Source of the DNA: Bordetella genomosp. 5
GTDB lineage: Bacteria; Pseudomonadota; Gammaproteobacteria; Burkholderiales; Burkholderiaceae_B
Length of the DNA stretch: 64,000 nt
Direction: 5' to 3'
NCBI RefSeq assembly: GCF_002261475.1
Contig: NZ_NEVN01000007.1
Coordinates: 248,001 to 312,000, forward strand
The notes beneath the pieces were generated by a model. The model had not been told where the DNA came from, ran no database searches, and saw only the letters and a list, made by a program, of their open reading frames with translations. The translations under genes and the position numbers were made by a program. Below are positions 22,193 through 47,280 of this stretch, in pieces (the first letter of the stretch is position 1; each line of letters opens with the position of its first letter).

Positions 22193-23365
22193 ATGAAAAT
22201 CCTGTCGATCTTTGGTACCCGGCCCGAGGCCATCAAAATGATGCCGCTGGTTCGGGCATTGCAACAGGAACGCACCGTCGAGAGCGTCGTGTGTGTCACC
22301 GGCCAGCATCGCCAGATGCTGGACCAGGTGCTGCAGCTGTTCGAGATCCAGGCCGATCACGATCTGGATGTGATGGTGCCCAACCAGACGCTCAACGGCC
22401 TCTTCGCCCGCATCATGACGCGCGTGGACGCGCTGCTCGAAGAGGTGAAGCCCGACGTCGTGCTCGTGCACGGCGATACGAGCACCGCCACCGCCTGCAG
22501 CCTCGCCGCCTTTCATCGCCGCATTCCGATCGGCCACGTCGAGGCCGGTCTGCGCACCGGCGATCTCGCACAACCCTTTCCTGAAGAAATGAACCGCCGC
22601 GTCGTGGATGTGGTGGGACAGTGGCTGTTCGCACCCACGCTGACCTCGCGTGCGAACCTGCGCCAGGAGAATCTGCAGGGCCGCATTTACGTCACCGGGA
22701 ACACCGTGATCGATGCGCTGGACCTGACCTTGACAAAGCTTGACAGTGATCGGGCCCTCAATAATGCGCTATCGACGCGCTATCACTGGCAGAATCCGGA
22801 CCGCCGACTACTGCTTGTTACGGGGCATCGTCGCGAAAGCTTCGGAGAGGGCTTTCGCAACATCTGCGCCGCCCTCGCCACCCTCGCGAAACGCGATGAC
22901 CTGGATATCGTCTATCCGGTGCATCTGAATCCGCAGGTGCGCGAGGTCGTGATGGGCACGTTGTCGGGACTGTCGAACGTCCACCTCATCGATCCGCTCG
23001 ATTACCTCGATTTCGTTTGGTTCATGCGCCGCGCCCACATCATTCTCACCGACTCTGGTGGTGTCCAGGAGGAAGCCCCTCACCTGGGCAAGCCCGTTCT
23101 CGTCATGCGCGATGTGACGGAACGGCCGGAGGCCCTGGCCGCCGGCACGGTGGCGCTGGTCGGCACGGAATCCGACCGCATCGTGCGGGCGGTCAATGCA
23201 CTGCTCGATGATCCCGCGCATTACGAACGCTTCGCCCGGGGCGTCAATCCCTACGGCGACGGCAACGCAAGCGCGCGCATCGTGTCTGCCCTGCTGGGTC
23301 GCGCGGTGCAAGAGTTCGATCCCAGCCAGCCTGGCCTGGCCGTCCCTCACTCCTTGGTCGCCTAA
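22193..23365 (+). CDS. wecB: UDP-N-acetylglucosamine 2-epimerase (non-hydrolysing)
   Basis: Interconverts UDP-GlcNAc and UDP-ManNAc in the cytoplasm. The 390-residue product begins with the canonical MKILSIFGTRPEAIKMMPLV and contains HGDTSTA, GHVEAGLRTG, FPEEMNR and TDSGGVQEEAP, all active-site or UDP-binding segments of WecB. The ATG at 22193 is preferred over a GTG nine bases earlier. It is the first gene of the polysaccharide operon, nine bases before the BcsB-like gene, and no wecC or other enterobacterial common antigen gene is present. That points to UDP-ManNAc (or a derivative) as substrate of the downstream NfrB-like enzyme. Confidence 0.96.
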   Translation: MKILSIFGTRPEAIKMMPLVRALQQERTVESVVCVTGQHRQMLDQVLQLFEIQADHDLDVMVPNQTLNGLFARIMTRVDALLEEVKPDVVLVHGDTSTATACSLAAFHRRIPIGHVEAGLRTGDLAQPFPEEMNRRVVDVVGQWLFAPTLTSRANLRQENLQGRIYVTGNTVIDALDLTLTKLDSDRALNNALSTRYHWQNPDRRLLLVTGHRRESFGEGFRNICAALATLAKRDDLDIVYPVHLNPQVREVVMGTLSGLSNVHLIDPLDYLDFVWFMRRAHIILTDSGGVQEEAPHLGKPVLVMRDVTERPEALAAGTVALVGTESDRIVRAVNALLDDPAHYERFARGVNPYGDGNASARIVSALLGRAVQEFDPSQPGLAVPHSLVA

Positions 23366-23374
23366 AACCCCATC

Positions 23375-25588
23375 ATGGTCATCACTTCTACCCGCACTTT
23401 CCGCCTCCATGCCGCGCGCCGCGCGCTGCTGCTGGCCTGCCTCGCCGGTCCGGCAGCCGTCATGGCCAGCCCTGCCAGCGACGCCCTGCTCGAGCTGGGA
23501 CGTGACGGTTTGATCCAGCGCAGTCTGTCTCTGAAGGACCTGGGCATCGGCAATCCTGTCGTGCTCGACCAAAGCGATAACCGCCAGGAATTCTTCCTGC
23601 CGGTGCCGCGCGGCGTGACCTTGACCGATGCCGCGCTGACGCTGGAAGGCAATTACCTGAAGGGCGAGGACGTGCCCGCCACGCTGAACGTGGCGATCGA
23701 TGGACGTCCTCAGGTCGCGCAGCGCGTCGTGGATCGCGAAGGCAATCTGCATCGCGCCCTGCCGATCGAGCCGCGTGCGCGTGAATCGGGCTTCGTGCAA
23801 CTCACCGTGAACTGGAGCTCGCCGATCGGCCTGCGCCTGTGCGAGTCGGACCGCCTCACGGCCAATGTGCTGACGCTGTCGCCCGACACGCGCCTGACCT
23901 ACCGCTATCCCGCCCAGGCCGTGCGCGGCCTGGACGACACCTGGCACACGCTGCCGGGCCAACCGGTCCTGCTGGTGGCCGGTGGCAAGCTCGACAAGCA
24001 GAGCTTCGACGCGGCGTGGCGCGTGGGCGTGGCGCTCGAGCGCACCGGCAAGCGCGCGGTCGTGAAAAGCCTGCCCGCCGTGGGCGACGAGATCCGCCTG
24101 GCCGGCCTGCAGGTGCCCGCCGCGCTGAGCAGCATCCCGGCCTTTGCCGCCTTCGCGGGCAAAGACACGCACAAGATCGCCGACCCGGCCGAGGTCGGCG
24201 CCTTGATCGTGCTGGGCGGCGCGCAAGGGGATCTGGCGATCACCGATAGCGCGCTGACCGGCCAGATCGATCAGGCGCTGGATGCGCTCGCCGGGCAGTT
24301 GCAGAACGATGCCGACGCGGCCCGCGAACTCACGCAATGGCGCGAGCGCCATGCCACGCTCGCCAGCGACAAGCCGGCCGCGCAGCAGGTCAAGGTGGCG
24401 CTGCTCGGGCATCAGCCGATGATCTCGATCTCGCCGGACGCCGGCGCGCAAGCCGCCGGCATCTTCGACAGCATCTGGCGCCGCGTGCTCACGTCGCGCC
24501 AGGCCACGGTGTTCCAGGCCGGCCAGAACGCAGCCAGCCTGGGCGACACGACGCGCCTGACGGCGCTCGGCGCCTCCACCACGGTGTTCGATGTGGTGAC
24601 GCGCGGCGACTGGAACATGACGTTCCCGCTGGCCGCCATCTCCAGCGATGGCCGCATTCCGGGCGAACTGGTGCTCGACCTGGCCGCCGCGCCCGGCGCG
24701 TCCATCACCAAGCCCGTGGCGTCGGTCATCTGGAACGGCGTGCTGCTCAATGCCAAGCAACTCGACGCGGACGGCCACCCGGAGCGGCTCGCCGCGCGGG
24801 TGCCGGGCTATGCGCTGGGCGTGACCAACAACCTGCGCGTGTCGTTCCAGCGCCAGCCCGTGTCGCCCAACTGTGCCGAAACGCCGCAGGGCTATCCGGT
24901 CAACGTGCTGCCTTCGAGCTTCGTGCGTGCCGGCAGCGCGCAACCGGACGGCACCTTCGTGGGCATCCTGCCGCTGCTGGCGGGCACGCCGCAGGTGCTG
25001 GTGCCGCAGAGCGCGCTCGACGCGCCGGTGACGCCGCTGCGCAACCTGATCGCGCTGGCCAACGCCAGCGCCCTGTCGCCGGTGCGCGCCGAACTCGTGC
25101 TGGCCGACGGCGCACAGGCCGTCAAACCGACGAAGCCGTTCCTGTCGATGGGTGTGCCTGTCGACGGCGTGGCACCGGTCATCAATGTGGTCGACGGCAA
25201 GCGCCTGACCGTCCGTGGCAAGGCGCAGAACGACCAGCCCTGGCTCGACGTCGAAGGCCCGGACCGTCTCAGCACGGCGTCGGTGGTCAAGTCGGGCACG
25301 CAGAACGGCATTCTCTGGCAGGCACTCGGCGAGCATCCCGCGCGCTTCGCGGAGTCGTTCGTGCTGACCCGCGGCAACGCCGTGGTGCTGGGCGAACAAG
25401 GCGCGCTGGCCTGGATCGACACCACCGACCCCGGCCTGAGCCAACCGCCCGGCATGGGTGGCGGTCCGTTCTACGAATGGCGTCAGTATCTGGGCTGGGG
25501 TGTGCCGCTGCTGGGCGCCCTGATCCTGCTGGCGCTGGTGCTGGCCGTGATGGCGCGCCGCGCCCGGGCCCGCAGCGAGAAGAAGTAA
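23375..25588 (+). CDS. BcsB-like periplasmic polysaccharide synthase subunit
   Basis: A 737-residue exported protein of the cellulose-synthase regulatory subunit (BcsB) family. It has a signal peptide (cleavage near VMA-SP), a large periplasmic body with beta-rich carbohydrate-binding-like segments, and one C-terminal membrane helix (about 706-728, WGVPLLGALILLALVLAVMA) followed by an Arg/Lys tail. In cellulose synthesis BcsB anchors to BcsA and guides the emerging glucan. Here the partner glycosyltransferase is NfrB-like and no BcsA/PilZ protein exists. I infer that this subunit receives the nascent polymer from NfrB and passes it toward NfrA. It follows wecB by nine bases. Confidence 0.85.
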   Translation: MVITSTRTFRLHAARRALLLACLAGPAAVMASPASDALLELGRDGLIQRSLSLKDLGIGNPVVLDQSDNRQEFFLPVPRGVTLTDAALTLEGNYLKGEDVPATLNVAIDGRPQVAQRVVDREGNLHRALPIEPRARESGFVQLTVNWSSPIGLRLCESDRLTANVLTLSPDTRLTYRYPAQAVRGLDDTWHTLPGQPVLLVAGGKLDKQSFDAAWRVGVALERTGKRAVVKSLPAVGDEIRLAGLQVPAALSSIPAFAAFAGKDTHKIADPAEVGALIVLGGAQGDLAITDSALTGQIDQALDALAGQLQNDADAARELTQWRERHATLASDKPAAQQVKVALLGHQPMISISPDAGAQAAGIFDSIWRRVLTSRQATVFQAGQNAASLGDTTRLTALGASTTVFDVVTRGDWNMTFPLAAISSDGRIPGELVLDLAAAPGASITKPVASVIWNGVLLNAKQLDADGHPERLAARVPGYALGVTNNLRVSFQRQPVSPNCAETPQGYPVNVLPSSFVRAGSAQPDGTFVGILPLLAGTPQVLVPQSALDAPVTPLRNLIALANASALSPVRAELVLADGAQAVKPTKPFLSMGVPVDGVAPVINVVDGKRLTVRGKAQNDQPWLDVEGPDRLSTASVVKSGTQNGILWQALGEHPARFAESFVLTRGNAVVLGEQGALAWIDTTDPGLSQPPGMGGGPFYEWRQYLGWGVPLLGALILLALVLAVMARRARARSEKK

Positions 25589-25603
25589 GGACGGCGGGCG
25601 ATC

Positions 25604-27307
25604 ATGTCCTCGCTCTACCTGCCCTATCTGGTGGCGGACTACTATCGCGGCCTGGAGATCATGGCCGCGATCGTAGGCGTGCTCATCATGCTCTCGAGCC
25701 TCGATGATCTGTTCATCGATCTCTGGTACTGGGTGCGCGAAGCCTGGCGATCGGTCACGATCAAGCGGCGCTACAAGGCCCTGACGGCCGAGGAGCTGCG
25801 CGCCAAGCCCGAGCAGCCGCTGGCGATCATGGTGCCGGCCTGGCTCGAGTACGACGTGATCGCGCCCATGCTCGAGAACATGGTCGCCACGCTCGAGTAC
25901 AAGAACTACATGATCTTCGCGGGCACCTACCAGAACGACGCCCGCACGATCCAGGAAGTCGAGCGCATGAAGCTGCGCTACCGCCAGCTCGTGCGCGTGG
26001 AGGTGCCGCACGATGGCCCGACCTGCAAGGCCGATTGTCTGAACTGGATCGTGCAAGCGATCTTCGCGCAGGACGCCAAGCAGGACGAGCCGTTTGCCGG
26101 CGTGATCCTGCACGACAGCGAAGACGTGCTTCACCCGCTCGAGCTGAAGTACTTCAATTACCTGCTGCCGCGCATCGACTTCATCCAGCTGCCCGTGACC
26201 TCGCTCGAGCGTCACTGGCACGAGTTCGTTGCCGGCACCTACATGGACGAGTTCGCCGAGTGGCACACCAAGGATCTGGTGGTGCGCGAGAGCATGTCGC
26301 GCATGGTGCCGTCGGCCGGTGTGGGCACCTGTTTTTCGCGCCGCGCCCTGCTCGATCTGGCGGCCCAGACCCACAACCAGCCGTTCAACACGGATACCCT
26401 GACCGAGGATTACGACATCGGCGCGCGGCTCTCGCAGCGCGGCATGAAGCAGATCTTCGGCAAGTTTCCGGTGGACTACGTCGCCAAGCGCCGGGGGCTC
26501 TTCGGCTGGGGCAAGGAACGCATGGTGGCGGTGCACATGCCGCTGGGCGTGCGCGAGTACTTCCCGAACACCTTCCGCACCGCCTACCGCCAGAAGGCGC
26601 GCTGGACGCTCGGGATCGGGCTGCAGGGCTGGCAGCAGGTCGGCTGGACGGGCTCGTTCGCGACCAAGTATCTGCTGTTCCGTGACCGCAAGGGCCTCTT
26701 CACGTCGTTCATCGCGATCGTGGCGTACCTGCTGCTGGCGCAGTTCGTCCTGTTCATGTTCATCAATGCGATGGGCTGGTGGACCGTGTTCTTCCCGTCG
26801 GCATTCGGGCCCAGCAGCTGGGTGCTGAACCTGATGTGGATCAACACGATCCTGCTGGGGCTGCGCCTGACGCAACGCGCGTATTTCGTGGGCCGCCTCT
26901 ACGGGTGGGAGCACGCCCTGCTGTCGGCGCCGCGCATGATCGTGGGCAACTTCATCAACGCCATGGCGGCGGCGCGCGCGTGGCGCCTGTACCTGGGCCA
27001 CCTCATCTTCCGCAAGCGCCTGGTCTGGGACAAGACCATGCATGACTTCCCGTCGGCCGACCAGCTGACGCAGCAGCGTCTGCGTCTGGGCGATCTGCTG
27101 CTATCGTGGCGCGCCGTCGACGAGAACCATCTGCGTCAGGCGCTGGAAGCGCAGGCGACCGAACACCGCCCCCTCGGGCAAATCCTGCTCGAGCGCGGCT
27201 GGCTCGACGAGCCGACGCTGAACGAGGCGATCTCGTATCAGCACGGCAACGCCGCACCGAATCACCCCCCGTCGGCCTCGCCCGAACAAAGATCGAACCC
27301 AACATGA
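25604..27307 (+). CDS. nfrB: NfrB-like glycosyltransferase with C-terminal MshEN c-di-GMP domain
   Basis: Inner-membrane family-2 glycosyltransferase, 567 residues. An N-terminal membrane helix (about 18-32) is followed by a cytoplasmic GT2 domain with DSED (171-174), TEDYD (267-271) and QKARW (330-334), the D, TED and QxxRW motifs of processive synthases. Three or so membrane helices follow (about 365-445). The C-terminus holds two 24-residue MshEN motifs: RLGDLLLSWRAV...LEAQ (494-517) and PLGQILLERGWL...SYQ (523-546), with the standard 5-residue spacer. E. coli NfrB, a c-di-GMP-activated glycan synthase, has the same layout but is longer (about 745). The stop overlaps the nfrA start (ATGA). 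Confidence 0.92.
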   Translation: MSSLYLPYLVADYYRGLEIMAAIVGVLIMLSSLDDLFIDLWYWVREAWRSVTIKRRYKALTAEELRAKPEQPLAIMVPAWLEYDVIAPMLENMVATLEYKNYMIFAGTYQNDARTIQEVERMKLRYRQLVRVEVPHDGPTCKADCLNWIVQAIFAQDAKQDEPFAGVILHDSEDVLHPLELKYFNYLLPRIDFIQLPVTSLERHWHEFVAGTYMDEFAEWHTKDLVVRESMSRMVPSAGVGTCFSRRALLDLAAQTHNQPFNTDTLTEDYDIGARLSQRGMKQIFGKFPVDYVAKRRGLFGWGKERMVAVHMPLGVREYFPNTFRTAYRQKARWTLGIGLQGWQQVGWTGSFATKYLLFRDRKGLFTSFIAIVAYLLLAQFVLFMFINAMGWWTVFFPSAFGPSSWVLNLMWINTILLGLRLTQRAYFVGRLYGWEHALLSAPRMIVGNFINAMAAARAWRLYLGHLIFRKRLVWDKTMHDFPSADQLTQQRLRLGDLLLSWRAVDENHLRQALEAQATEHRPLGQILLERGWLDEPTLNEAISYQHGNAAPNHPPSASPEQRSNPT

Positions 27308-30078
27308 TTGCATTCACGCGCCCCCTGCTGCTGGCCGCAGCCTTGTGCGCCGTTACCGGCGCCAGCCTGGTCCCCGCCGGCCCTGTCCTGGCGGCCGAAG
27401 AAGTCCCGCTGAGCGGCGAGGCCTTCGAGCTGGCCGACCAGGCCTACAAAAGCTACAACGCCGGCAAGTTCGCCGACGCGCTGACGCAGGTCAACGGCGC
27501 GCTCAAGACGCGTCCGGACGTCGCGCGGCTGCAGCTGCTGAAGGTCTACACGCTGCAGAAGCTCGGCCGCATCAAAGAGGCGCGCGAGGCCGCGCAGGCC
27601 GCGCTCAAGCAGGGGGTGGACGATCCGGGCCTGCGCGCCGCGGTGACCAACCTGCGCCAGGGCCCGGCCCCCGGCGCCGGCGCCGGCAATGGCCGCAGCG
27701 CCGCCTACAACCGCGCGTTCCCGATCGCCACCAAGGCCTACGCCGACTACAACCGCGGCGAGATGCAGGCGGCGGCCGCCGGCGCCGAGCGCGCGGTGCG
27801 CATCGATCCCTCGCAAGGCGAGTGGTCGATCCTGTGGGTGGACTCGTTGCAGGCGCAACAAAAATTTCCCGAGGCCGAGAAGGCGGCCACGGCCGCCATC
27901 GCACTGGGCGCGCCCAACAAGGGCGACCTGGAAGCGCGCCGCGCGGCCATCAAGCGCCGCATCGCCATCGATCCGGTCGCGGCCGCCTACCGCGAACTCG
28001 CCGTGGATCGGCCCGCCGCGGCCATCCCGCTCGCGCGCGAAGCCGTGGCGCTCGCGCCCGATGTCTCCAGCTACCGCCTGCTGCTGCTCACCACGCTGAT
28101 GCTGGCCGACCAGCTCGACGCCGCCGAAGCCGCCGCCAGCGACGCGCTGGTGCAGGACGACGAAAACACCGTGGCGCTCGTGCTGCGCGGCTATCTGAAG
28201 CAGCGCCAGGGCAAGACCGCCGAAGCGAACGCCGATTTCGACGAAGCGCTCAAGCAGGACTGGCTCGACGACGATCAGCGCCGCAACATCCGCCTGATCG
28301 CCATCGACGGCGCCATCGCCGCGGGCGACTACGCGCGGGCGCGCAGCATCATCGAGCCCATGGACGCCAAGGACGAAGGCGTCGCACGGCGCCAGAAGCT
28401 CATCCGCGCGGGCAAGTCCGCGCCCATGCTGACGGCATCGAACTATCCCCCGCCGGCGCAGGCCTGCCGCGACACGCCGTACGGCACGCAGTGCGAGCTT
28501 GCGCCCTCGGACGAAGCCGGCGGCGGCAACAGCCCGGCCGCGCTGGCCTACGCGGCCTATGGCCGCCAGCACTACCAGGAAGCGATCGAGCAGGCCCAGC
28601 GCGCGGTCGCCGCGTCGCCCGATGACCCGGCCCTGCAGCAATTGCTGACGACCGCGCTCGCTTCGGGCAATGCCGCCCAGGCGGCGCAGGCCGAGCAACG
28701 GCTCAATGCCGCGCTGGCCAAGACCCCGCAGGATCCGTCGCTGCTGATGCAGCGCGCCTACCTGCGCCAGCGCACCGGCCGGCCCGAACTGGCGCTGCAG
28801 GATTTCCGTGCCGCGCGCGACACCGGCAAGGCACCGCCCACGGTGATCCTCGACGAGGCGTATGCGCTCTCGGCCACCGGCGATAACCGCCAGGCCGTCG
28901 AGAAGCTCAAACAGGCCATCGATCTGGACGACACCGGCAATCTGAAGCTCGATCCCCAGCAACGCGAGAACACGCGCGGCGCCATCGCCGGCCTGTCGCG
29001 AGAATGGGGCGCCATCGCCTCGATCGGCTATCGCGGCGCGCGCCCCGCCTCGAGCAGCCTGGACGGCGCGGCCATCAGCACCCCCGGAGACGCCGCGTTC
29101 AGCACGGCCGAAGTGTTCTGGCGTCCGCCCGCGACCAACAACCAGTACGGCACGCTGGAAGCCTACGCCCGCCTGTCGAACACGATCTACGAGGGCAGCA
29201 GCAAGTTCCAATCCACCCGCTTCGTGGATCCCTGCGGCATTCAGAACGACGTGGAAGTGACCGGTCCCGACGGCACCCTGCGCTCCCGCTCGGCCACCGG
29301 CTTCCCGAGCACGATCGGCTCGCTGGGCCTGCGCTACGCCTTGTCGGACACGGGCGTGTCGTTCGGCCTCGAGCGGCGCTTCTTCCTGGGCAGCGCCACG
29401 CGCCAGGGCTCGCTGAACCCGGCCTCGCGTCAGCTCCAGTGCGACATCCGCCAGCAGTTCGATCCGCGCCTGCAGAACGCGACCGCGTCGTACAAGCTGA
29501 ACGGCGACGCGGGCGGCTGGATGACCTACCTGACCTACGGCTACTACTACGGCAACAGCCTGCGTTCCGACGTGCCGAGCTGGCTCACGATCGAAGGCTA
29601 CTCGCAGCTGGGCTATGCGTGGGACAGCAACAGCGCGCGCTTCGACGTGCGCGGCCTCGACTCGAATGGCAATACCGCAGACCGCTACCAGTCCCGCGGC
29701 AAGCTCTCGCGCGACCAGGCTTTTGCCTCCGCCGAGTTGCGCGTGGGTCAGAGCTTCCGCCTCGACCGCATCAGCAACAAGCTGGTCGTGTTTCCGCACG
29801 CCGTGCTCGCGACCGACTGGCTGTGGCAGAAGAGCCGTGTCAGCGGCGTCGATTACGGCGACCCGCTGGGCACGCAAAGCTACGCCCTGTCGGGCAACGG
29901 CAAGAGCTGGTCGATGGGCGTGGGCCCCGGTATCGACGTGCGCTACTGGTTCCGCGAAGACCACTACAACGCGGCCCGCTCTTATTTCAATGTGTCCATG
30001 CAGTACCGCACCCCTATCGGTGGCGGCGCGACCGACCGCGCCAAGGGCTTCTTCATGAACATGACGATGTACTACTAG
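27304..30078 (+). CDS. nfrA: NfrA-like outer-membrane TPR/beta-barrel protein
   Basis: A 924-residue exported protein with a signal peptide (cleavage near VLA-AE), long TPR-type alpha-helical repeats (about residues 30-570) and a C-terminal beta-barrel region (about 590-924) rich in alternating aromatic strands and ending in MYY, a terminal aromatic typical of outer-membrane barrels. The layout matches NfrA, the outer-membrane porin of the E. coli N4-receptor glycan pathway, and is analogous to BcsC and PgaA. It overlaps nfrB by four bases, so synthase and secretin-like exporter are coupled. I infer that it exports the polymer. Confidence 0.9.
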   Translation: MIAFTRPLLLAAALCAVTGASLVPAGPVLAAEEVPLSGEAFELADQAYKSYNAGKFADALTQVNGALKTRPDVARLQLLKVYTLQKLGRIKEAREAAQAALKQGVDDPGLRAAVTNLRQGPAPGAGAGNGRSAAYNRAFPIATKAYADYNRGEMQAAAAGAERAVRIDPSQGEWSILWVDSLQAQQKFPEAEKAATAAIALGAPNKGDLEARRAAIKRRIAIDPVAAAYRELAVDRPAAAIPLAREAVALAPDVSSYRLLLLTTLMLADQLDAAEAAASDALVQDDENTVALVLRGYLKQRQGKTAEANADFDEALKQDWLDDDQRRNIRLIAIDGAIAAGDYARARSIIEPMDAKDEGVARRQKLIRAGKSAPMLTASNYPPPAQACRDTPYGTQCELAPSDEAGGGNSPAALAYAAYGRQHYQEAIEQAQRAVAASPDDPALQQLLTTALASGNAAQAAQAEQRLNAALAKTPQDPSLLMQRAYLRQRTGRPELALQDFRAARDTGKAPPTVILDEAYALSATGDNRQAVEKLKQAIDLDDTGNLKLDPQQRENTRGAIAGLSREWGAIASIGYRGARPASSSLDGAAISTPGDAAFSTAEVFWRPPATNNQYGTLEAYARLSNTIYEGSSKFQSTRFVDPCGIQNDVEVTGPDGTLRSRSATGFPSTIGSLGLRYALSDTGVSFGLERRFFLGSATRQGSLNPASRQLQCDIRQQFDPRLQNATASYKLNGDAGGWMTYLTYGYYYGNSLRSDVPSWLTIEGYSQLGYAWDSNSARFDVRGLDSNGNTADRYQSRGKLSRDQAFASAELRVGQSFRLDRISNKLVVFPHAVLATDWLWQKSRVSGVDYGDPLGTQSYALSGNGKSWSMGVGPGIDVRYWFREDHYNAARSYFNVSMQYRTPIGGGATDRAKGFFMNMTMYY

Positions 30079-30111
30079 GCCGAGCCCGCCACTTATCACC
30101 AGGAGAATCGC

Positions 30112-31107
30112 TTGAGCACCCTCTTTCGCACCCTGACCGCCCTGCGCCGCCCCGCGGCCGCGGTCGCCCTCACCCTGGCCGGCCTCGGCGCGGCGCACGC
30201 GCAGGCCACCGCGTCGTCGATCGTCTTCATGGGCAAGGACGGCTGGCTCTTCCCCGGCTGGGGCAGCCTGACCCAGGTCGACACGGCCGGCATCGACGCC
30301 TCGACCCAGCTCATCAAGGACACGCGCGACGCGCTGGCCAAACGCAACATCCAGCTCGAAGTGCTGGTGCTGCCGGACAAGACCCGTTTCTACGGCGACA
30401 AGCTGCCCGCCGACAAGTCGTTGAGCCCCGCCGTGCAGGGCCGCTACCAGACCATTCTGGGCAAGCTCAAGCAGGCGCAGATCCTCGCGATCGACGACGA
30501 GGCGGTGCTGCAGAAGGTCAAGCAGGGCGGCCAGGACGTGTTCTACCGCAGCGACCAGCACTGGACGCAGCCGGCGGCCGACGCCACCGCGGTCGCCGTG
30601 GCGGCCCAGATCAAGCAGAACGTCAAGCAGCTCGCGGGCAAGCCGGGCACCGGCATGCCGCTCGGCACGGTGTTCAACGAGCGTCGCTATGGCGACCTGG
30701 CCGAGCTTTTCCTGACGGCCGAGCAACGCAAGCAGATCGGCCGCGACACTTTCACGGTGCGCCGCCAGGCCGAAGGTCAGAGCCTGCTCGAGGATGCGCC
30801 CGCGCCGGTGCACGTGACCGGTCACAGCATGGTGCAGCCGTACTTCGGCTTCCCGCAGAAGCTGTCCAACGAGCTCGACCGTCCGGTCAGCGTCAACTGG
30901 AAGCCGGGTAACGTCGGCCACTGGACCATGCTGCTCGAGTATCTCGAGTCCCCCGCGTTCAAGCAGAACCCGCCGCAAGTGCTGGTGTGGCAGATGTTCG
31001 AGCCCGCCTACTCGCAGGGCCCGAACGCGCAAGGGCTGTGGGATAACGCCTCGATCATGAGCCCCGACACCTTCCGCAGCCGCATGCGCCGCGCACTGGG
31101 TCAATGA
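30112..31107 (+). CDS. AlgX/AlgJ-like SGNH acyltransferase, soluble periplasmic form
   Basis: A 331-residue exported protein with a cleavable signal peptide (AHA-QA, about residue 30) and an AlgX/AlgJ-type SGNH hydrolase domain. The catalytic triad candidates are Asp148 and His150 in FYRSDQHW and Ser239 in VTGHSM. AlgX-type proteins transfer acetyl groups to exopolysaccharide hydroxyls in the periplasm. The start codon is TTG at 30112, supported by AGGAG six bases upstream; no ATG fits the signal peptide. It is the first gene of the modification module, 33 bases after nfrA. Confidence 0.85.
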   Translation: MSTLFRTLTALRRPAAAVALTLAGLGAAHAQATASSIVFMGKDGWLFPGWGSLTQVDTAGIDASTQLIKDTRDALAKRNIQLEVLVLPDKTRFYGDKLPADKSLSPAVQGRYQTILGKLKQAQILAIDDEAVLQKVKQGGQDVFYRSDQHWTQPAADATAVAVAAQIKQNVKQLAGKPGTGMPLGTVFNERRYGDLAELFLTAEQRKQIGRDTFTVRRQAEGQSLLEDAPAPVHVTGHSMVQPYFGFPQKLSNELDRPVSVNWKPGNVGHWTMLLEYLESPAFKQNPPQVLVWQMFEPAYSQGPNAQGLWDNASIMSPDTFRSRMRRALGQ

Positions 31108-32315
31108 GCATGAGCACGCCGCAAGAGCCCGGCGAATCGGGCGCGCAGACCGCGCCCGGCATGGCCGCGGGCAAGTTGGCCGCGAAGGCCGGGGCGCCCG
31201 GTATCAAGAAGGCGGGTTCGCCCCCGCCGGATACCGGGCCCGAGCCGTCGCACCGGCTGACCGCCCTCGTGGTCGCGGGTCTGCTGACCGTGGGCGGGCT
31301 GTCCGGCATGTGGATGCTGGCCAACGCCAAGGTCAGCGCCGATCAGCTCACGCCGTCGTCGTGGGCCGATGGTCACGCCGGGAATGCGCTCAATGCGGCG
31401 TTGCGCCTGCCGATTCAGGCAGAAATGGATACCGCCACCGCGGCCGCCCGCTATCGTCTGCTGGGCGATCTCGGCCCGCAGGTGACGATGGGTTGCCCCG
31501 ACTGGCTCTATTACCGCGACGGCCTGCGTCCGCAACCCGGCGTACGCGATGCCTATGAAGGCCGCATCACGCTGATGCGGCACTGGGTCGACCGCCTGCG
31601 CGAGCGCGGCGTGCAGGTGCTCGTGGTGCCGGTGCCCGACAAGTCGCGCATCCAGGCCGACGGACTTTGCGGCCTGCGCTACTCGCAGGCCATGCGTGAC
31701 CGCCTGGACGACTGGCAGCGCGTGCTGGGCAGCTACAAGGTGCCCTATGTGGACCTGCGGCCCGCGCTCGCGCAGGGCACGGCGCCGCGCTTCTTTCATA
31801 CCGACGTACACATGACATCGGTGGGCGCGCAGGCGGCGGCCAACGCCGTCGCGCAGGCCGCCTTGCCGCTGCTGGGCGGACGCGGTCCTCAGGCTTTCAA
31901 GGTGGATCCGCCCGGACCCGCCGTGCCGCGCATGGGCGACCTGATCGTGCTGGCCGGTTTGGAGCATGCGCCGCCGGCCTGGCGTCCGCCGCTGGACAAG
32001 GAACCCGAACAGACCATCGCCCCGGTGCGTGGCGGGGGCCTGCTCGACGACACGCCGCCCGTCGAGGTGCTGCTGGCAGGCAGCTCCAACGGCCGGCGCA
32101 GCCTGTTCGCCGAACGCCTGGGCGAAGGCCTGGGTCGCGAAGTCTGGAATCTGAGCCTGGATGGCGGCCAGTTTTCCGGCGCCCTGCTCGCGGCATTCCA
32201 GCAGCAGGACAAGTGGCCGAAGAGTCTGAAGCTGGTGATCTGGGAGTTCTCGGAAATGGCGCTTTCGCTGCCGCTCACGCCCGAAGAACGCAAGGCGCTT
32301 GCCGCGCTCAAATAA
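31104..32315 (+). CDS. AlgJ-like SGNH acyltransferase, membrane-anchored form
   Basis: A 403-residue protein with a 48-residue Pro/Ala/Gly-rich cytoplasmic tail, one membrane helix (about 51-72) and a periplasmic SGNH domain. FHTDVHMTSVGA supplies the Asp234-x-His236 pair and LLAGSSNGRR the nucleophile Ser (327/328), matching AlgJ and WssI-like polysaccharide acetyltransferases. Its start overlaps the previous stop (ATGA); a second ATG six bases on is possible. Having one anchored and one soluble SGNH protein mirrors AlgJ plus AlgX in alginate acetylation. Confidence 0.85.
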   Translation: MSMSTPQEPGESGAQTAPGMAAGKLAAKAGAPGIKKAGSPPPDTGPEPSHRLTALVVAGLLTVGGLSGMWMLANAKVSADQLTPSSWADGHAGNALNAALRLPIQAEMDTATAAARYRLLGDLGPQVTMGCPDWLYYRDGLRPQPGVRDAYEGRITLMRHWVDRLRERGVQVLVVPVPDKSRIQADGLCGLRYSQAMRDRLDDWQRVLGSYKVPYVDLRPALAQGTAPRFFHTDVHMTSVGAQAAANAVAQAALPLLGGRGPQAFKVDPPGPAVPRMGDLIVLAGLEHAPPAWRPPLDKEPEQTIAPVRGGGLLDDTPPVEVLLAGSSNGRRSLFAERLGEGLGREVWNLSLDGGQFSGALLAAFQQQDKWPKSLKLVIWEFSEMALSLPLTPEERKALAALK

Positions 32316-32331
32316 CAACGACGACGCCGCG

Positions 32332-33915
32332 ATGCTCTTCAACTCCTATCTCTTCCTGCTGGTCTTCCTGCCCATCACGCTGGCCGTGCACTACGCCGTC
32401 GGCTCGGTGAGCCTGCGCCTGGCCGCGCTCTGGCTGTGCATCACCTCGATCGTTTTCTATGGCTGGTGGAATCCGCAGTTCGTCGTGCTGCTGTCGGGCT
32501 CGATCGCGTTTAACTACATCGTCAGCCAGATCATCTTGAGCCTGGGCTCGCGGCCCAAGCTGCAGCTGCTCGTGACCGGCCTGGGCGTGGCGGGCGACCT
32601 CGCCCTGCTCTTTTATTACAAGTACTTCACGGCGCTGCTGGGCTTTCTGCATGGCATGGGCATGGGCAGCGGCGGCCCGATCGACGACATCCTGCTGCCG
32701 CTGGGCATCTCGTTTTTCACGTTCACCCAGATCGGCTACCTGCTGGACTGCCGCGCCGGCGTGGTCAACGAGCGCAGCCTGCTCTCGTACGTGCTGTTCG
32801 TGACGTTCTTCCCGCACCTGATCGCCGGCCCGATCCTGCATCACAAAGAGATGATGCCGCAATTCGCGCAGCGCGATAACTACCGCTTCCGCTCCGAAAA
32901 CCTGTCCATCGGCGGCATGCTGTTCCTGATCGGCCTGACCAAGAAGGTGGTGCTGGCCGACTCGATCGCGCCGTATGCCGACGCGGGCTTCGCCGAACCG
33001 GGATCGCTGCAGTTCTGGGCCGCCTGGGGCGCGAGCATGAGCTACGCCCTGCAGCTCTATTTCGATTTTTCGGGCTACTCGGACATGGCCCTGGGCCTGG
33101 CCAAGATGTTCGGCATCCGCTTCCCGCTGAATTTCAATTCGCCCTACAAGGCGACCAGCATCATCGATTTCTGGGCGCGCTGGCACATCACGCTGACGCG
33201 ATATCTGACCGCCTATCTCTATTACCCGGTGGCCATGGCGGTGTCGCGCTGGCGCACCGACCGCGGCAAGCCCGTGGGCGCGGCGGGCGTCGCGACCGCC
33301 GGCGGCTTCGCCTCGACCATCGTGCTTCCGACCGTCTTCACCATGGGGCTCGCCGGGATCTGGCACGGCGCCGGTCTGCAGTATCTGGTGTTCGGCCTGT
33401 TGCATGCCGGGTATCTGTCGATCAATCACGCCTGGCGCATCTTCGTGGTGGGCCGCCAGGCGGCCGTGTCGCGCAACCCCGGCCGCCTCGCCAAGATCTT
33501 TTATCTGCTGCTGACCTTCGCCGCGGTGCTGGTGGCCCAGGCCTTCTTCCGTGCGCACAGCACCGCGGATGCCTGGCTGCTGGTGCAGGGCATGATGGGC
33601 CTGCGCGGCTTCGAAGGCATGGAGACCTTCTCCTACCTGTCGGGCGTCTCGTTCGCGGACGGCTGGCGCATGCTGGCGGGCCGCCACATTCAGCTGCTGT
33701 ACGTGATCGTGCTGCTGGCCATCGTGTGGTTCACGCCCAACGCGCACCAGATCATGGGCCGCTACTCGCCCGCCCTGGTGCGTCCGAATCCGGCGCCCAC
33801 GCCGTGGATGCGCTGGCGGCCGAACCTGGCCTGGCTGGGCGTGATGCTGCTGATGCTGGCCCTGTGCCTGCTGAATCTGCACAAAGAAACCCGCTTCCTC
33901 TACTTCCAATTCTGA
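32332..33915 (+). CDS. algI: MBOAT acyltransferase (AlgI/DltB family)
   Basis: Multipass inner-membrane O-acyltransferase that moves an acyl group from a cytoplasmic donor to periplasmic acceptors. The 527-residue product has about ten membrane helices and the MBOAT signatures YFDFSGYSDMA, FWARWHITLTRYL (His285) and the catalytic GIWHGAG (His345). Its length (AlgI about 520, DltB about 400) favours the AlgI branch. The start at 32332 (MLFNSYLFLLVFLPI) is conserved in the family; an upstream TTG is discounted. The neighbouring carrier protein gene implies that its donor may be an acyl-carrier thioester, as for DltB, rather than acetyl-CoA. Confidence 0.92.
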   Translation: MLFNSYLFLLVFLPITLAVHYAVGSVSLRLAALWLCITSIVFYGWWNPQFVVLLSGSIAFNYIVSQIILSLGSRPKLQLLVTGLGVAGDLALLFYYKYFTALLGFLHGMGMGSGGPIDDILLPLGISFFTFTQIGYLLDCRAGVVNERSLLSYVLFVTFFPHLIAGPILHHKEMMPQFAQRDNYRFRSENLSIGGMLFLIGLTKKVVLADSIAPYADAGFAEPGSLQFWAAWGASMSYALQLYFDFSGYSDMALGLAKMFGIRFPLNFNSPYKATSIIDFWARWHITLTRYLTAYLYYPVAMAVSRWRTDRGKPVGAAGVATAGGFASTIVLPTVFTMGLAGIWHGAGLQYLVFGLLHAGYLSINHAWRIFVVGRQAAVSRNPGRLAKIFYLLLTFAAVLVAQAFFRAHSTADAWLLVQGMMGLRGFEGMETFSYLSGVSFADGWRMLAGRHIQLLYVIVLLAIVWFTPNAHQIMGRYSPALVRPNPAPTPWMRWRPNLAWLGVMLLMLALCLLNLHKETRFLYFQF

Positions 33916-33931
33916 CCTCACTGGAGCCGTC

Positions 33932-34171
33932 ATGGACATGCAAGAACTCGAACAGCAAGTTGCCGACATCATCGAAGGCGTCATCCTCACCAAGGTCGAT
34001 GCCGATACGCTGCTGGTGGAATCCGGCCTGATCGATTCGCTTTCGGCGGTGGACGTGGCGCTCGCCGTGGAGCGCAAGTTCGGCGTCAAGATCCCGCCGA
34101 CCGAGATCGACGTGCATCTGGAATCGGTGCAGGCGCTGGCGCAGTTCATCGCCGAAAACAAGCAAGGCTGA
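33932..34171 (+). CDS. Stand-alone acyl/peptidyl carrier protein (DltC-like)
   Basis: A 79-residue acidic helical protein with the phosphopantetheine attachment motif GLIDSLSAVD; Ser36 is the predicted site. Size and sequence resemble DltC, the D-alanyl carrier protein. It sits between the MBOAT gene (16-base gap) and the adenylating ligase, the same functional neighbours as in dlt operons, so it should shuttle the activated acyl or aminoacyl group to the MBOAT protein. A dedicated phosphopantetheinyl transferase is not present in the window. Confidence 0.9.
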   Translation: MDMQELEQQVADIIEGVILTKVDADTLLVESGLIDSLSAVDVALAVERKFGVKIPPTEIDVHLESVQALAQFIAENKQG

Positions 34172-34216
34172 TCGTTCACTCGCGCCGCCGCGCGCATCCG
34201 CAGCAGGAGTTCCGAC

Positions 34217-35689
34217 ATGCGCTTCGATTTCGATCTTTACGACTTCGCCGATACCGATGTCGCTGCGGAGGCGCCCGCCATCCAGGATGCCAGCGGCACG
34301 ATGAGCTGGGGCGCGCTGCGCGAGGCGACCGACGCGTGGATCACGCGCGCGCGCGCCGCGGGTGTCGCCCCCGGCTATGCCCTGGTGATCTCGGGCCACA
34401 AGGAAGCCGGCTTCCTGGTGGCCATGCTCGCCTGCCTGCGCATGGGCGTGACCTACGTGCCGGTCGACACCATCAATCCGCAGCAACGCATCCAGCGCAT
34501 CGGCGATATCGTGCAGGCGCCCGTGCGTTACGACGCGACGGCCGACCGCTTCGAGCCGGCCTGCGCCGACCCGCAGCCGCTCAGGCAGACCGGCCTGGCC
34601 TACATCATGTTCACCTCGGGCAGCACCGGGGATCCCAAGGGCGTGCAGATCGGCCGCGAAAGCGTGGCGCTGTTCGCCGGCTGGATCCGCGACTGCCTGA
34701 ATCTGGGTCCGGCGCCCGCGTTCATGAACCAGATGCTGTTTTCGTTCGACTTCTCGTTGTTCGATATCTGCGGCGCGCTGGTGCTGGGCGGCGTGTGCGT
34801 GCTGTGCCCGCGCGAGGTGATCGGTCAGCGCGACCAGTTCGTGGGCTATCTGGCGCAGAACAAGATCGAGGTGTGGGCGTCCACGCCTTCGTTCGTGCGT
34901 CAGCAGCTCATCAATCCGGAGTTCAACCACGAACACCTGCCGGCACTGAAGGTGTTCGTGTTCGGCGCCGAATCGCTCACGCCGACGCTGGCCGAGGAGC
35001 TCTGGACGCGCTTTCCGTCGGTGCGCATCATCAACTCGTACGGGCCGACCGAAGCCACCTGCTCCACCACCTGGGTCGAGATCGACCCGGCCCTGCGTGC
35101 CCGCGCGCCCAATCCGTTTCCGATCGGCCGCGCCAAGCCCTACGCCGAGGTCTTCCTGGTGGACGGCGAAATCTGCATGTCGGGCGATCACGTCATGTAT
35201 GGCTATCTGAACCGGCCCGATCTCGACCAGAACGTGCTGTTCACGCACAACGGCAAGCGGGCCTATCGCAGCGGCGACCTGGGCGTGATCGATGACCAGG
35301 GTCTCGTGACCTTCAAGGGCCGCAAGGACGACCAGATCAAGATGCACGGCTACCGCATCGAGCTGGCCGAAGTCGACGCCGCGCTCGCCACCCTGCCCGG
35401 CGTGCGCGCCGGCGCCACCGTCGCATTGCGCCGGCCGGACGGCACGCTCGTGCGCATGATCGGCTTCGTCGAGCTCACCCAGACCGCCCCGCCCGGACTG
35501 GGTCCGCTGCCCGACGCGCTGGCGAGCTGGAAAGACCTGCTGGCGGTGCGCATGCCGCCTTATATGATCCCGTCGGAACTGCTCGCCTGCGATGCGTTCC
35601 CGACGACCAACAGCGATAAAGTCGATCGCAAGAAACTCGAGCGCATGTACCTCGATGCGCGCACCAGCCGATCCTCGGAGAAAGCATGA
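34217..35689 (+). CDS. DltA-like amino-acid adenylating ligase
   Basis: ATP-dependent adenylation enzyme, 490 residues, that would activate a carboxylic acid and load it onto the carrier protein. Core motifs are intact: A3 FTSGSTGDPKG (132-142), A5 NSYGPTEAT (273-281), A7 YRSGDLG, A8 GRKDDQIKMHGYRIE and the A10 lysine in NSDKVDRK (Lys468). Asp178 in FSFDFSLFD is the residue that binds the substrate amino group in amino-acid-activating enzymes, as in DltA. In DltA the position after FMF is the Cys that discriminates D-alanine; here it is Gly250 (VFGAES). The amino acid is therefore uncertain. Confidence 0.87.
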   Translation: MRFDFDLYDFADTDVAAEAPAIQDASGTMSWGALREATDAWITRARAAGVAPGYALVISGHKEAGFLVAMLACLRMGVTYVPVDTINPQQRIQRIGDIVQAPVRYDATADRFEPACADPQPLRQTGLAYIMFTSGSTGDPKGVQIGRESVALFAGWIRDCLNLGPAPAFMNQMLFSFDFSLFDICGALVLGGVCVLCPREVIGQRDQFVGYLAQNKIEVWASTPSFVRQQLINPEFNHEHLPALKVFVFGAESLTPTLAEELWTRFPSVRIINSYGPTEATCSTTWVEIDPALRARAPNPFPIGRAKPYAEVFLVDGEICMSGDHVMYGYLNRPDLDQNVLFTHNGKRAYRSGDLGVIDDQGLVTFKGRKDDQIKMHGYRIELAEVDAALATLPGVRAGATVALRRPDGTLVRMIGFVELTQTAPPGLGPLPDALASWKDLLAVRMPPYMIPSELLACDAFPTTNSDKVDRKKLERMYLDARTSRSSEKA

Positions 35690-36375
35690 ACACCCTGTCG
35701 TCCCGCCTCCTGGCTGCCGCGCTGGCCGCCGCCGCCCTGAGCGCCACCGCCCCCGCCGCGGCCCAGGCCCAGGCCGAAGGCGCCTTCGCGCAGCTGTACG
35801 CGCCGCGCCCGCCCGCGGGCTCCTCATTCGTGCGCGTGGTCAATCCCGGCACGGCGCCGATCAAGGTCAAGCTCGCCAGCGGCCCCGAGCAGGAAATCGG
35901 CCCCAAGCAGCGCGCCAGCAGCTATGCCATCGTCAAGGGCGGCCAGTCGTTCGAGATTCGTATCGACGGCAAGGTGGCCGGCTCGCTGCAGGTGCAACCG
36001 GACAGCTTCAACACGCTCGTGCCCACGCCGGGTGCCGCGCAGCCGTTCAAGGCGCTGGATGATTCCAATGGCAACCAGGATGCGCTGAAAGCGGAGATCC
36101 GGTTCTACAATCTGGCTCAGGATTGCCCCGCGGGCAGCCTGACGGTGGCCAACGGCCCCACGCTGTTCGCCGATGTGGCGCCGGCCAGCGCCAAGGCACG
36201 GGCCATCAACCCGGTCACGGCGAGCCTCATGGCCACCTGCGGCCAGGCCGTCACCGCCGCCTGGCCCCTGCCCGCCCTGCAACCCGGCGACCATTACAGC
36301 CTGTTCCTGACCGGCAGCGCCGCCTCCCCCCAACTTTCGGGCCAGACCGGCCAGACCGACCCGTACACCCGCTAG
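35686..36375 (+). CDS. algF: AlgF-like periplasmic acylation adaptor
   Basis: A 229-residue exported protein with a signal peptide (cleavage near AQA-QA) and the two-domain beta-rich pattern of AlgF: AFAQLYAPRPPAGSSFVRVVNPG at the start of the mature protein and repeated similar strands later (about 110-200). In Pseudomonas, AlgF is required for alginate acetylation along with AlgI and AlgJ. The start overlaps the ligase stop (ATGA). It closes the modification module and is the best evidence, with AlgI, that the module acts on an exopolysaccharide. Confidence 0.85.
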   Translation: MNTLSSRLLAAALAAAALSATAPAAAQAQAEGAFAQLYAPRPPAGSSFVRVVNPGTAPIKVKLASGPEQEIGPKQRASSYAIVKGGQSFEIRIDGKVAGSLQVQPDSFNTLVPTPGAAQPFKALDDSNGNQDALKAEIRFYNLAQDCPAGSLTVANGPTLFADVAPASAKARAINPVTASLMATCGQAVTAAWPLPALQPGDHYSLFLTGSAASPQLSGQTGQTDPYTR

Positions 36376-36385
36376 GCAGCACCGC

Positions 36386-37513
36386 ATGCGCACCGTATTT
36401 CGCGACGACCACGAGCTGTTTCGTGACCAGGTTCGCCGCTTCATCGCCGAAGAGATCAAGCCGCATTACGAGCAATGGGAACGTGATGGCGTGACGCCGC
36501 GCAGCCTGTGGCGCCGCGCGGGCGAAGAAGGTCTGCTGAATTGCGCGCTGCCCGATCCGTATGGGCTGGGCGGCGACGACGGGCATTCGGCCTGCGTCAT
36601 CGAAGAGCTGGCGCGCGCCAATTATCTGGGCATCGGCTTCTCGATCCACTCGGATATGGTCTCGCCCTACATCATGCGGTATGGCACCGATGCGCAACGC
36701 GAACGCTGGCTGCCGCGCATGACCCGGGGCGAGCTGATCGGCGCGATCGCCATGACGGAGCCCGGCGCGGGCAGCGATCTCAAGGCCATCCGCAGCCGCG
36801 CCGTGCGCGAAGGCGATGGTTATGTGCTGAACGGCCAGAAGACCTTCATCACCAACGGCACGAACGCCGGCATCGTGGTGCTGGCCGCCAGTACCAATCC
36901 CGATCTCGGCGCGCGCGGCCTGTCGCTGTTCGCCGTGGAAGAAGGCACGCCCGGCTTCACCAAGGGCCCGCCCATCGCCAAGATCGGCCAGCATGCCCAG
37001 GACACCTGCGAGCTCTTCTTTACCGACGTGCGCCTGCCCGCCGACGCCCTGCTCGGCGAAGAGGGGCGCGGGTTCGAATACATGAACGAGCAGCTGGCCG
37101 GCGAACGCATGGCCATCGCATTGCGCGCGGCCGCCTCGGCCGAGGGCATGTTGCGCGAAGCCGTCACCTACACCAGCGAGCGCAAGGCCTTCGGCCGCCG
37201 CGTGCTGGACTACCAGAACAGCCGCTTCAAGCTGGCCGATGCGCAGGCGCAGCTCACGATGTTGCGTGTGTTTCTCGACGACTGCCTGGCGCGCCAGATG
37301 GCCGGCACGCTCGACGCGCTGACGGCCGCCGTGGCCAAGCTCAACGCCACCGAGATTCAGGGCAAGGTGCTCGACGACCTGCTGCAACTCTACGGCGGCT
37401 ATGGCTACACCACCGAGTACGGCATCGGCCGCGCCTGGGCCGACGCCCGCGCGCTGCGTATCTTCGGCGGCACCAGCGAAATCCTGCGCGAGATCATCGG
37501 CCGCTCGCTGTAA
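36386..37513 (+). CDS. Acyl-CoA dehydrogenase family flavoprotein
   Basis: A 375-residue FAD enzyme of the acyl-CoA dehydrogenase superfamily. It has the FAD/substrate motif AMTEPGAGSDLKAIR, the ITNGTNAGIVVLAA loop, LYGGYGYTTEYGIGR with the usual catalytic glutamate region, and the C-terminal FGGTSEILREIIGRSL. Only 10 bases separate it from algF, so it is probably on the same transcript. It may be an ordinary fatty-acid-type dehydrogenase, or it may oxidise a carrier-bound acyl group made by the upstream ligase. The sequence alone does not decide. Confidence 0.92.
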   Translation: MRTVFRDDHELFRDQVRRFIAEEIKPHYEQWERDGVTPRSLWRRAGEEGLLNCALPDPYGLGGDDGHSACVIEELARANYLGIGFSIHSDMVSPYIMRYGTDAQRERWLPRMTRGELIGAIAMTEPGAGSDLKAIRSRAVREGDGYVLNGQKTFITNGTNAGIVVLAASTNPDLGARGLSLFAVEEGTPGFTKGPPIAKIGQHAQDTCELFFTDVRLPADALLGEEGRGFEYMNEQLAGERMAIALRAAASAEGMLREAVTYTSERKAFGRRVLDYQNSRFKLADAQAQLTMLRVFLDDCLARQMAGTLDALTAAVAKLNATEIQGKVLDDLLQLYGGYGYTTEYGIGRAWADARALRIFGGTSEILREIIGRSL

Positions 37514-41452: not shown

Positions 41453-41462
41453 CGCCCCGACC

Positions 41463-46890: not shown

Positions 46891-47280
46891 TGGTGGAGCC
46901 GGGGGGAATTGAACCCCCGTCCGCAAGCCCTCCACAGTCAGTTCTACATGCTTAGTCGATCTATTTGGATTTAACCCTGGACTTAGCCGATCAACGGGCC
47001 GGACCAGGGCGATTCACGTAATTTAAACCTACGCCGTGTGACCCCAGCGCAGACCGATTCCTTGTGAATGTCGCTGCTGCGGTTCGGGGGTTACCCCCCT
47101 AAAGAGTTGCCTCTTCCCGCCTGACCCAAGGACAGATCAGTGCAGCGGCTCACCGCTTAAGCGGCGAGAGCGAAACGCTCGTCGTTGGCGTTTAGTTTGT
47201 TTCCAGTGGTTTTACGAGCGTACTGGTGCTCGGCATGCCCTGAGCTGCTTCATGACCCACGTCGAATCCGGATCGGCCCC
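46891..47280 (-). ncRNA. ssrA: Transfer-messenger RNA
   Basis: Rescues stalled ribosomes and tags their products for proteolysis. The 390-base RNA starts GGGGCCG and ends CGGCTCCACCA; these form the 7-bp tRNA-like acceptor stem with one G-U pair. The T-arm GGGGGTTCAATTCCCCC precedes the end. The tag frame (47157-47189) reads ANDERFALAA then TAA, identical to the tag reported for Bordetella, and gives good evidence of the family. The CCA is encoded. A terminator follows immediately. Confidence 0.97.

Follow-up and report, generated by a model that had tools for sequence, protein, structure and literature searches.

Why would an operon for an exopolysaccharide of the phage-receptor type also encode the enzymes that activate an amino acid and load it onto a carrier protein? 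This question is raised by eleven same-strand genes (22193–37513, plus strand) in the window, by which we mean the whole 64,000-nucleotide stretch of Bordetella genomosp. 5 analysed here (contig NZ_NEVN01000007.1, positions 248,001–312,000; contig C4 of the 5.2-Mb genome). The genes are, in order, wecB, bcsB-like, nfrB, nfrA, algX1, algX2, mboat, acp, ligA, algF, and acad, the last belonging to the acyl-CoA dehydrogenase (ACAD) family. The locus is probably an exopolysaccharide operon of the Nfr/NGR type carrying a module for decoration of the glycan with aminoacyl esters; the sugar, the amino acid, its oxidation, the ester, and co-transcription are what we infer from the sequence.

Operon layout and glycan core

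A sequence-only reading of this DNA had described ten genes in one direction with several 4-base overlaps. All ten were found in the claimed order at 22193–36375, and 4-base overlaps were confirmed at three junctions (nfrB/nfrA, algX1/algX2, and ligA/algF), with gaps of 9–45 bases at the remaining ones. The end point of the operon had been placed too early, as the eleventh gene, acad (36386–37513), which starts 10 bases 3′ of the algF stop, was overlooked. Because of these overlaps and short gaps, a single transcript covering all eleven genes is likely.

The proposed sugar supply by WecB was borne out: wecB (22193–23365) encodes a predicted non-hydrolysing UDP-GlcNAc 2-epimerase supplying UDP-N-acetylmannosamine (UDP-ManNAc), and the protein is a clear equivalog (TIGR00236, 476 bits against a cut-off of 210) with no other match in its own genome. 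The presence of this sole copy within the operon indirectly supports a ManNAc-based polymer. The BcsB-like guide was upheld at the level of its orthologues, 13 of 15 of which matched PF03170 at E ≤ 0.01 (best, 4.4e-12), and is weak for the window protein itself (23375–25588), which fell below the curated cut-off (18 bits against 21; E = 0.00098). Pfam is the sole source of this assignment; among solved structures, a profile search up to E = 1 returned no BcsB chain.

The synthase and its link to cyclic di-GMP (c-di-GMP) were likewise corroborated by profile matches. NfrB (25604–27307), which belongs to glycosyltransferase family 2 and contains TED and QxxRW motifs, reached 926 bits against the NF012033 glycosyltransferase model (cut-off 537); aligned with E. 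coli NfrB, it shows 43% identity across 544 columns. Its residues 494–546 form an MshE-type motif domain predicted to bind c-di-GMP (NF053729, 51.8 bits against a cut-off of 38), and the protein stops shortly past this domain (567 residues compared with 745 in E. coli NfrB). The putative exporter NfrA (27304–30078) consists of TPR families and the NfrA C-terminal domain (PF13283 NfrA_C, 81 bits, 7.6e-23), and it matches E. coli NfrA itself weakly (8e-5). On these homologies, the wecB-bcsB-nfrB-nfrA core is assigned to the Nfr/NGR-type glycan systems.

Distribution and conservation of the module

A search for NfrB across 41 relatives and another 399 genomes from the order yielded 18 distinct genomes with matches at E ≤ 1e-60, and approximately 20 kb around each nfrB was inspected by tblastn with the window proteins. 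A BcsB-like gene lay near nfrB in 9 of the 18, and the modification module was present in only five (the window, G007, G017, G156, and G193), all found without a ligase query. In G302 and G287, nfrB is located at a contig end with the upstream genes out of view. G001, a member of the same genus, is a core-only case, where wecB-bcsB-nfrB-nfrA is followed directly by a DUF4434 gene, with no module at the position that it occupies in the window.

Using the ligase as the query, module-type copies (at least 58% identity) were detected in 17 of 250 family genomes, and 16 of these were examined (all except G992). A scan of named genomes, covering the best 80 of 312 relatives, gave five module loci (L045–L049) and five loci treated as Dlt-type (L050–L053 and L059). 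It added Achromobacter sp. UMC46, Stenotrophomonas nematodicola, S. daejeonensis, and Cupriavidus basilensis, while A. pestifer was also among the 16 ligase genomes; since its two loci (L045 and L160, with identical NfrB) represent one genome, the 23 module loci correspond to 22 distinct genomes. At the other 70 loci of the best 80, inspected by tblastn only, many ligases lay beside a membrane-bound O-acyltransferase (MBOAT), others were lone ligases or repeated matches resembling nonribosomal peptide synthetases, and no nfr genes were found above the score filter. G156 and G193 are coded as a different family within the order, possibly but not certainly the one containing Cupriavidus, and wecB falls past the locus end in the named-genome-scan loci and in L166.

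The gene order from nfrB to acad, as given above, was unbroken in 19 of the 22 distinct genomes. In S. daejeonensis (L047), algF is relocated and acad is missing; L166 also has no acad, and the remaining proteins of the window match nothing downstream. The third exception, G193 (L030:14282–17212), has an inverted ligase and carrier followed by a divergent ACAD-fold protein without the helix-G Glu, and its ligase has a DltA-type pocket; this module is perhaps an independent re-assembly. In 20 of the 22 genomes, mboat and algF flank the carrier and ligase genes; in L030 the carrier–ligase pair is inverted next to them, and in L047 the pair adjoins mboat. The conserved neighbourhood of nfrB with algI- and dltA-like genes that the sequence-only reading had proposed searching for was recovered, and by this comparison of loci the add-on is a real module.

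Acyl-transfer proteins: a probable combination of two pathway types

The module includes two AlgX-type proteins, an MBOAT, and AlgF, together with a carrier protein and a DltA-like ligase, in agreement with the combined alginate/Dlt-type acylation module claimed previously. Both algX1 (30112–31107; PF16822, 1.5e-71) and algX2 (31104–32315; PF16822, 2.8e-63) encode AlgX/AlgJ-type SGNH proteins. AlgX1 carries DQHW and GHSM in the window, and DxHW was kept in all 23 module loci and GHSM in 20. AlgX2 carries TDVH and GSS; TDVH was kept in 21 of the 23, the other two being start-choice fragments, and the simple GSS pattern was found in 13 only, so that the position of its serine is less certain. 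An AlgF-like protein (35686–36375; PF11182, 1.1e-17) is encoded at every one of the 23 loci.

The AlgI/PatA-type MBOAT (32332–33915; PF03062, 2.3e-20; 527 aa from the chosen start) ends in FLYFQF, as do copies from other module loci, and its C-terminus has the form FXYXXF throughout (23/23). In its available text, a 2025 paper describes FXYXXF as an acyl-shuttle motif and MBOAT/SGNH pathways other than Dlt as having no carrier protein and using acyl-CoA as the donor (PMC12148441). The pairing of an FXYXXF-tailed MBOAT with an AlgX-type SGNH protein places the module with the Alg/Pat type, but the lack of a carrier expected of that type was not observed: carrier and adenylation genes lie beside the FXYXXF-tailed MBOAT in all 23 loci (mostly ligase-query finds).

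At all seven Dlt-type loci examined (five from Alcaligenaceae and two from enterobacteria), the MBOAT has no FXYXXF; its stop-to-stop frame comprises 373–405 residues in six of them and 490 in L050, of which the last 404 were used. These loci (L050, L051, L059, L167, L168, L052, and L053) show a separate DltX-like frame directly before the MBOAT, ending in FQYQQF or FEYQKF; in two of the loci this frame is 78 and 89 residues long. DltD is shown by Pfam in L050 alone, next to the separate shuttle frame. The module, by comparison, has neither a separate DltX-like peptide nor DltD; it has AlgX-type proteins, with the motif on the MBOAT. Because the module MBOAT bears its own shuttle tail yet adjoins a carrier and a ligase, unlike in the Dlt-type loci, the module is interpreted as the donor side of Dlt joined to the acceptor side of Alg/Pat.

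A distant relative of the MBOAT (42–46% identical) was found in G1263. At E ≤ 1e-120, 4 of 398 phylum genomes gave a match, and apart from G1263 these were three module genomes. Within 20 kb at the G1263 locus (L183), tblastn detected neither a ligase nor a carrier nor any nfr gene.

Adenylation enzyme, carrier, and predicted amino acid

The best models for the ligase (34217–35689; PF00501, 2.4e-51) were those of DltA, with 335 and 329 bits, below the respective cut-offs of 476 and 560, and the carrier protein (33932–34171; PF00550, 2e-9; phosphopantetheine site GLIDSLS) likewise scored below the cut-offs of the DltC models (33.8 and 28.5 bits against 68 and 52). The ligase is approximately 51–53% identical to the ligases at Dlt-type loci of its relatives, and the solved structures that score best with it are those of amino-acid enzymes. 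All 23 module ligases retain the alpha-amino-binding Asp (equivalent to DltA D197 and GrsA D235), as well as the A3 loop and a C-terminal Lys. The earlier claim of esterification with an activated acid is supported as to the acid, most likely an amino acid, and the ester chemistry itself stays a prediction.

In a direct alignment to Bacillus cereus DltA, the module ligase has Phe for Leu198 and Gly for Cys269, two residues described as contacting D-alanine in the available text of PMC11253843, and thus does not have the D-alanine pocket. The Phe/Gly pair was found in 21 of the 22 distinct module genomes. The pocket reads DFFAVGSCSK in the window and DFFA(V/L/M)GSCSK in 20 of the 22; in L166 (DFFAYGGVSK) the same Phe and Gly are present and other positions differ. 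The Dlt-locus ligases of relatives, in contrast, have DLYVLCTVAK, with Leu and Cys kept in five of five. Since a bulkier residue lies on the D side of the pocket and none on the L side, the predicted substrate is a side-chain-bearing L-amino acid rather than D-alanine.

Of the 250 family genomes, 47 had a ligase match at E ≤ 1e-100, and 15 of these had two ligases. The genome of the window has one full ligase at this threshold plus a truncated relative on contig C13 (L043:17401–18525) that is 42% identical to the operon ligase, contains neither the A3 loop nor the C-terminal part, and lies directly after a GGDEF gene identified by Pfam. By eye, its neighbours resemble histidine kinase, response-regulator, and transposase genes; it may be either a relic or a repurposed protein.

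The dehydrogenase-family gene

Matches to PF00441, PF02771, and PF02770 place the acad product in the acyl-CoA dehydrogenase family, and the helix-G Glu-Arg was kept in 20 of 20 ACAD rows. The window ACAD is 71–90% identical to eight other sampled module copies and 53% identical to its best own-genome paralogue, and the sampled module ACADs form a clade (98/98) with that paralogue outside. A chance neighbour was considered and rejected, as the gene accompanies the module in Alcaligenaceae, in Cupriavidus, and in one Stenotrophomonas, and the sampled module copies form a clade.

An adenylation enzyme, a carrier, and a dehydrogenase also make up trios of the PltF-PltL-PltE kind, in which the adenylation enzyme is prolyl-specific. 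The module has the same three enzyme classes; its ACAD, unlike that of such trios, scores nearer to long-chain acyl-CoA dehydrogenases, and a fit of proline to the ligase pocket was not shown. PltF ranked seventh of seven in the ligase alignment comparison, and the ACAD does not belong to the RedW/PigA kind (RedW, 215 bits against a cut-off of 650; PigA, 194 against 500). The conversion of proline to pyrrole was therefore not upheld as a firm claim, given the far better scores of the ACAD with long-chain acyl-CoA dehydrogenases. By analogy, the ACAD could plausibly act on an L-amino acid bound to the carrier, and we consider the prospects of a dehydrogenation step on the carrier to be about evenly balanced.

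Apparent transfer of the module between NfrB lineages

In the NfrB tree, the Stenotrophomonas proteins cluster with core-only NfrBs (support 96/95), and a single clade of all module-bearing NfrBs was rejected by the approximately unbiased test (p = 5e-40), the tested group having been defined after the loci had been inspected. In the ligase tree, Stenotrophomonas joins the window and G007 (98/95); with less support (87/93), the ACAD tree, which includes one Stenotrophomonas sequence, shows this grouping too. As the NfrB tree and the other two trees place Stenotrophomonas differently, the module appears to have moved as a unit between two NfrB lineages, with the ligase and ACAD carried together onto a different core.

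Proposed mechanism and alternative explanations

In the proposed mechanism, WecB would produce UDP-ManNAc, which NfrB would polymerise when activated by c-di-GMP at its MshE-type tail; the BcsB-like protein would lead the chain across the periplasm, and NfrA would export it. On the cytoplasmic side, the adenylation enzyme would activate a side-chain-bearing amino acid (L rather than D) and load it onto the carrier, where the ACAD-family enzyme would probably dehydrogenate its alpha and beta carbons. The MBOAT would then move the residue from the carrier to the Tyr of its own C-terminal FLYFQF tail, from which it would pass to AlgX1 and AlgX2, with AlgF as an adaptor, for esterification of the polymer. 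A stronger version, which we hold only tentatively and think rather doubtful, is a third type of envelope-acylation pathway with a carrier donor and a self-tailed MBOAT, in which the amino acid is oxidised on the carrier ahead of transfer and ends up on the exported, c-di-GMP-controlled glycan as an alpha,beta-dehydro (or pyrrole-like) L-amino acid ester. To our knowledge, such an ester is a substituent of no described biofilm polymer.

Several observations weigh against these proposals. The NfrB equivalog model NF008411 gave 583 bits, below its cut-off of 1170, and a scan of the operon region for sigma-70 promoters and terminators returned chance-level results with no informative site. Most module loci were found with the ligase query, so the presence of the ligase is by construction, whereas the presence and order of the other genes are not. 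The trees contain long branches. The module ACAD is present in 19 of the 22 distinct module genomes and missing in the other three (L047, L166, and L030); oxidation is thus not obligatory, and L047 of S. daejeonensis has the same ligase pocket with no ACAD. Among solved structures, long-chain acyl-CoA dehydrogenases come closest to the ACAD (362 bits with the human enzyme), and the best prolyl-ACP dehydrogenase reached only 173 bits.

One competing explanation is a plain D-alanine ester, with the Dlt/Dra pathway redirected to an exopolysaccharide and the ACAD as a metabolic passenger. It draws on the closeness of the ligase to DltA in model score and in identity to the Dlt-locus ligases, and on L030, whose pocket (DVYVLCTVAK) is DltA-type and close to those ligases. 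Moreover, since the genome of the window has no second full ligase, the module ligase might also serve a need for D-alanine there. We nevertheless judge this explanation unlikely, because the Leu198/Cys269 pair is replaced in nearly all module genomes and retained at the Dlt loci, the 15 genomes with two ligases do not need the module copy for D-alanine, and the ACAD tracks the module across genera. Equally unlikely, in our estimate, is ordinary acetylation, in which the MBOAT, AlgX, and AlgF would use acetyl-CoA as in alginate or peptidoglycan and the ligase, carrier, and ACAD would serve another product. The FXYXXF-tailed MBOAT, AlgX, and AlgF are indeed components of known acetyl systems, two published nfr papers interpret such genes, in their available text, as O-acetyltransferases (PMC8669472 and PMC8669469), and the MBOAT relative at L183 (42%) stands apart from ligase, carrier, and nfr genes; in 20 of 22 genomes, however, mboat and algF enclose the carrier and ligase, an arrangement that is not by construction and speaks for a joint function. 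A third explanation, a polymer with an unsaturated short- or medium-chain acyl ester made by an acyl-acid ligase and the ACAD, would suit the similarity of the latter to long-chain acyl-CoA dehydrogenases and its helix-G Glu-Arg, but the conserved alpha-amino-binding Asp and the amino-acid enzymes among the top solved relatives of the ligase make it very improbable. The aminoacyl-ester module thus remains the reading that we prefer.

Flanking genes and other features of the window

Upstream of the operon lie a gyrA-type gene, an OmpA-family gene, a methyltransferase gene, and a HAD hydrolase gene, and downstream, on the opposite strand, a small methyltransferase-family gene is followed by a DUF4434 gene (38296–39318, minus strand; PF14488, 1.3e-57). 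The latter protein is distantly related to YbcH of E. coli (26% identity across 199 columns, 4e-9), which is encoded by the third gene of E. coli nfrBA-ybcH according to the available text of PMC8669469. A DUF4434 gene was found near the operon in 22 of the 23 module loci as well as in the core-only G001, and this YbcH-related, conserved neighbour perhaps participates in polymer processing.

Further downstream, a 645-residue protein is encoded on the minus strand (39536–41473) that had no Pfam match at E ≤ 0.001; its neighbours encode a family 2 glycosyltransferase (41463–42278) and a small EamA/SMR-type membrane protein. A tmRNA gene with the tag peptide ANDERFALAA is located at 46891–47280.

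Relation to known systems and implications

The sequence-only reading had stated that no such system was described, which was too strong, as parts of such nfr clusters have been reported. In the available text of PMC8669472, published in 2021, Achromobacter xylosoxidans is described as having a cluster of nfrA, nfrB, and wecB with a BcsB homologue and O-acetyltransferase homologues, and PMC8669469 similarly mentions a Simplicispira suum nfr cluster with alginate-acetylation-like genes. The A. xylosoxidans cluster is very probably the same kind of locus, sharing the core and the acyltransferase part; the accessible text of that paper, however, names no adenylation enzyme, carrier, acyl-CoA dehydrogenase, or amino-acid ester. 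Among the search listings of open-licence papers and the passages of the papers cited here, no account of a ligase, carrier, or dehydrogenase in such an nfr locus was found.

As far as the available text of PMC8669469 and PMC8669472 goes, the E. coli nfrBA-ybcH/WecB NGR system, the phage N4 receptor, shares the c-di-GMP motif of NfrB, NfrA, WecB, and a YbcH-type neighbour with the window. Unlike that system, the operon in the window itself holds wecB and a bcsB-like gene, encodes a shorter NfrB, and has seven more genes. The Dlt pathway (DltABCDX), including the Dlt-type dra locus of Bordetella that is concerned with D-alanine (PMC9858536, available text), shares an adenylation enzyme and a carrier beside an MBOAT, as well as SGNH proteins, and differs in having the shuttle hexapeptide on DltX rather than the MBOAT, DltD in place of AlgX/AlgF, Leu198/Cys269 instead of Phe/Gly, and no additional ACAD. 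The O-acetylation systems of alginate (AlgIJFX), cellulose (WssHIFG), and peptidoglycan (PatAB) share the FXYXXF-tailed MBOAT, the AlgX-type SGNH protein, and AlgF; these systems use acyl-CoA and no carrier in the account available from PMC12148441, whereas the module encodes a carrier and an adenylation enzyme between the MBOAT and AlgF. The AlmEFG system for glycylation of Vibrio lipopolysaccharide likewise uses a DltA-like enzyme and a carrier to decorate a Gram-negative envelope glycan, but with AlmG as the acyltransferase and lipopolysaccharide as the target, and the Leu/Cys pair around the alpha carbon is not kept (PMC11253843 and PMC3783018, available text).

Overall, the mechanism likely unites two pathway types that have been described as separate, at a locus that is conserved and partly in print already. 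It suggests that the Nfr phage-receptor glycan has swappable chemistry, and N4-like phages of A. xylosoxidans are noted in the available text of PMC8669472. Such changes in the glycan could alter phage sensitivity, surface charge, and biofilm properties in Achromobacter, Stenotrophomonas, and their relatives, and the ACAD may represent a new lineage of aminoacyl-carrier dehydrogenases.

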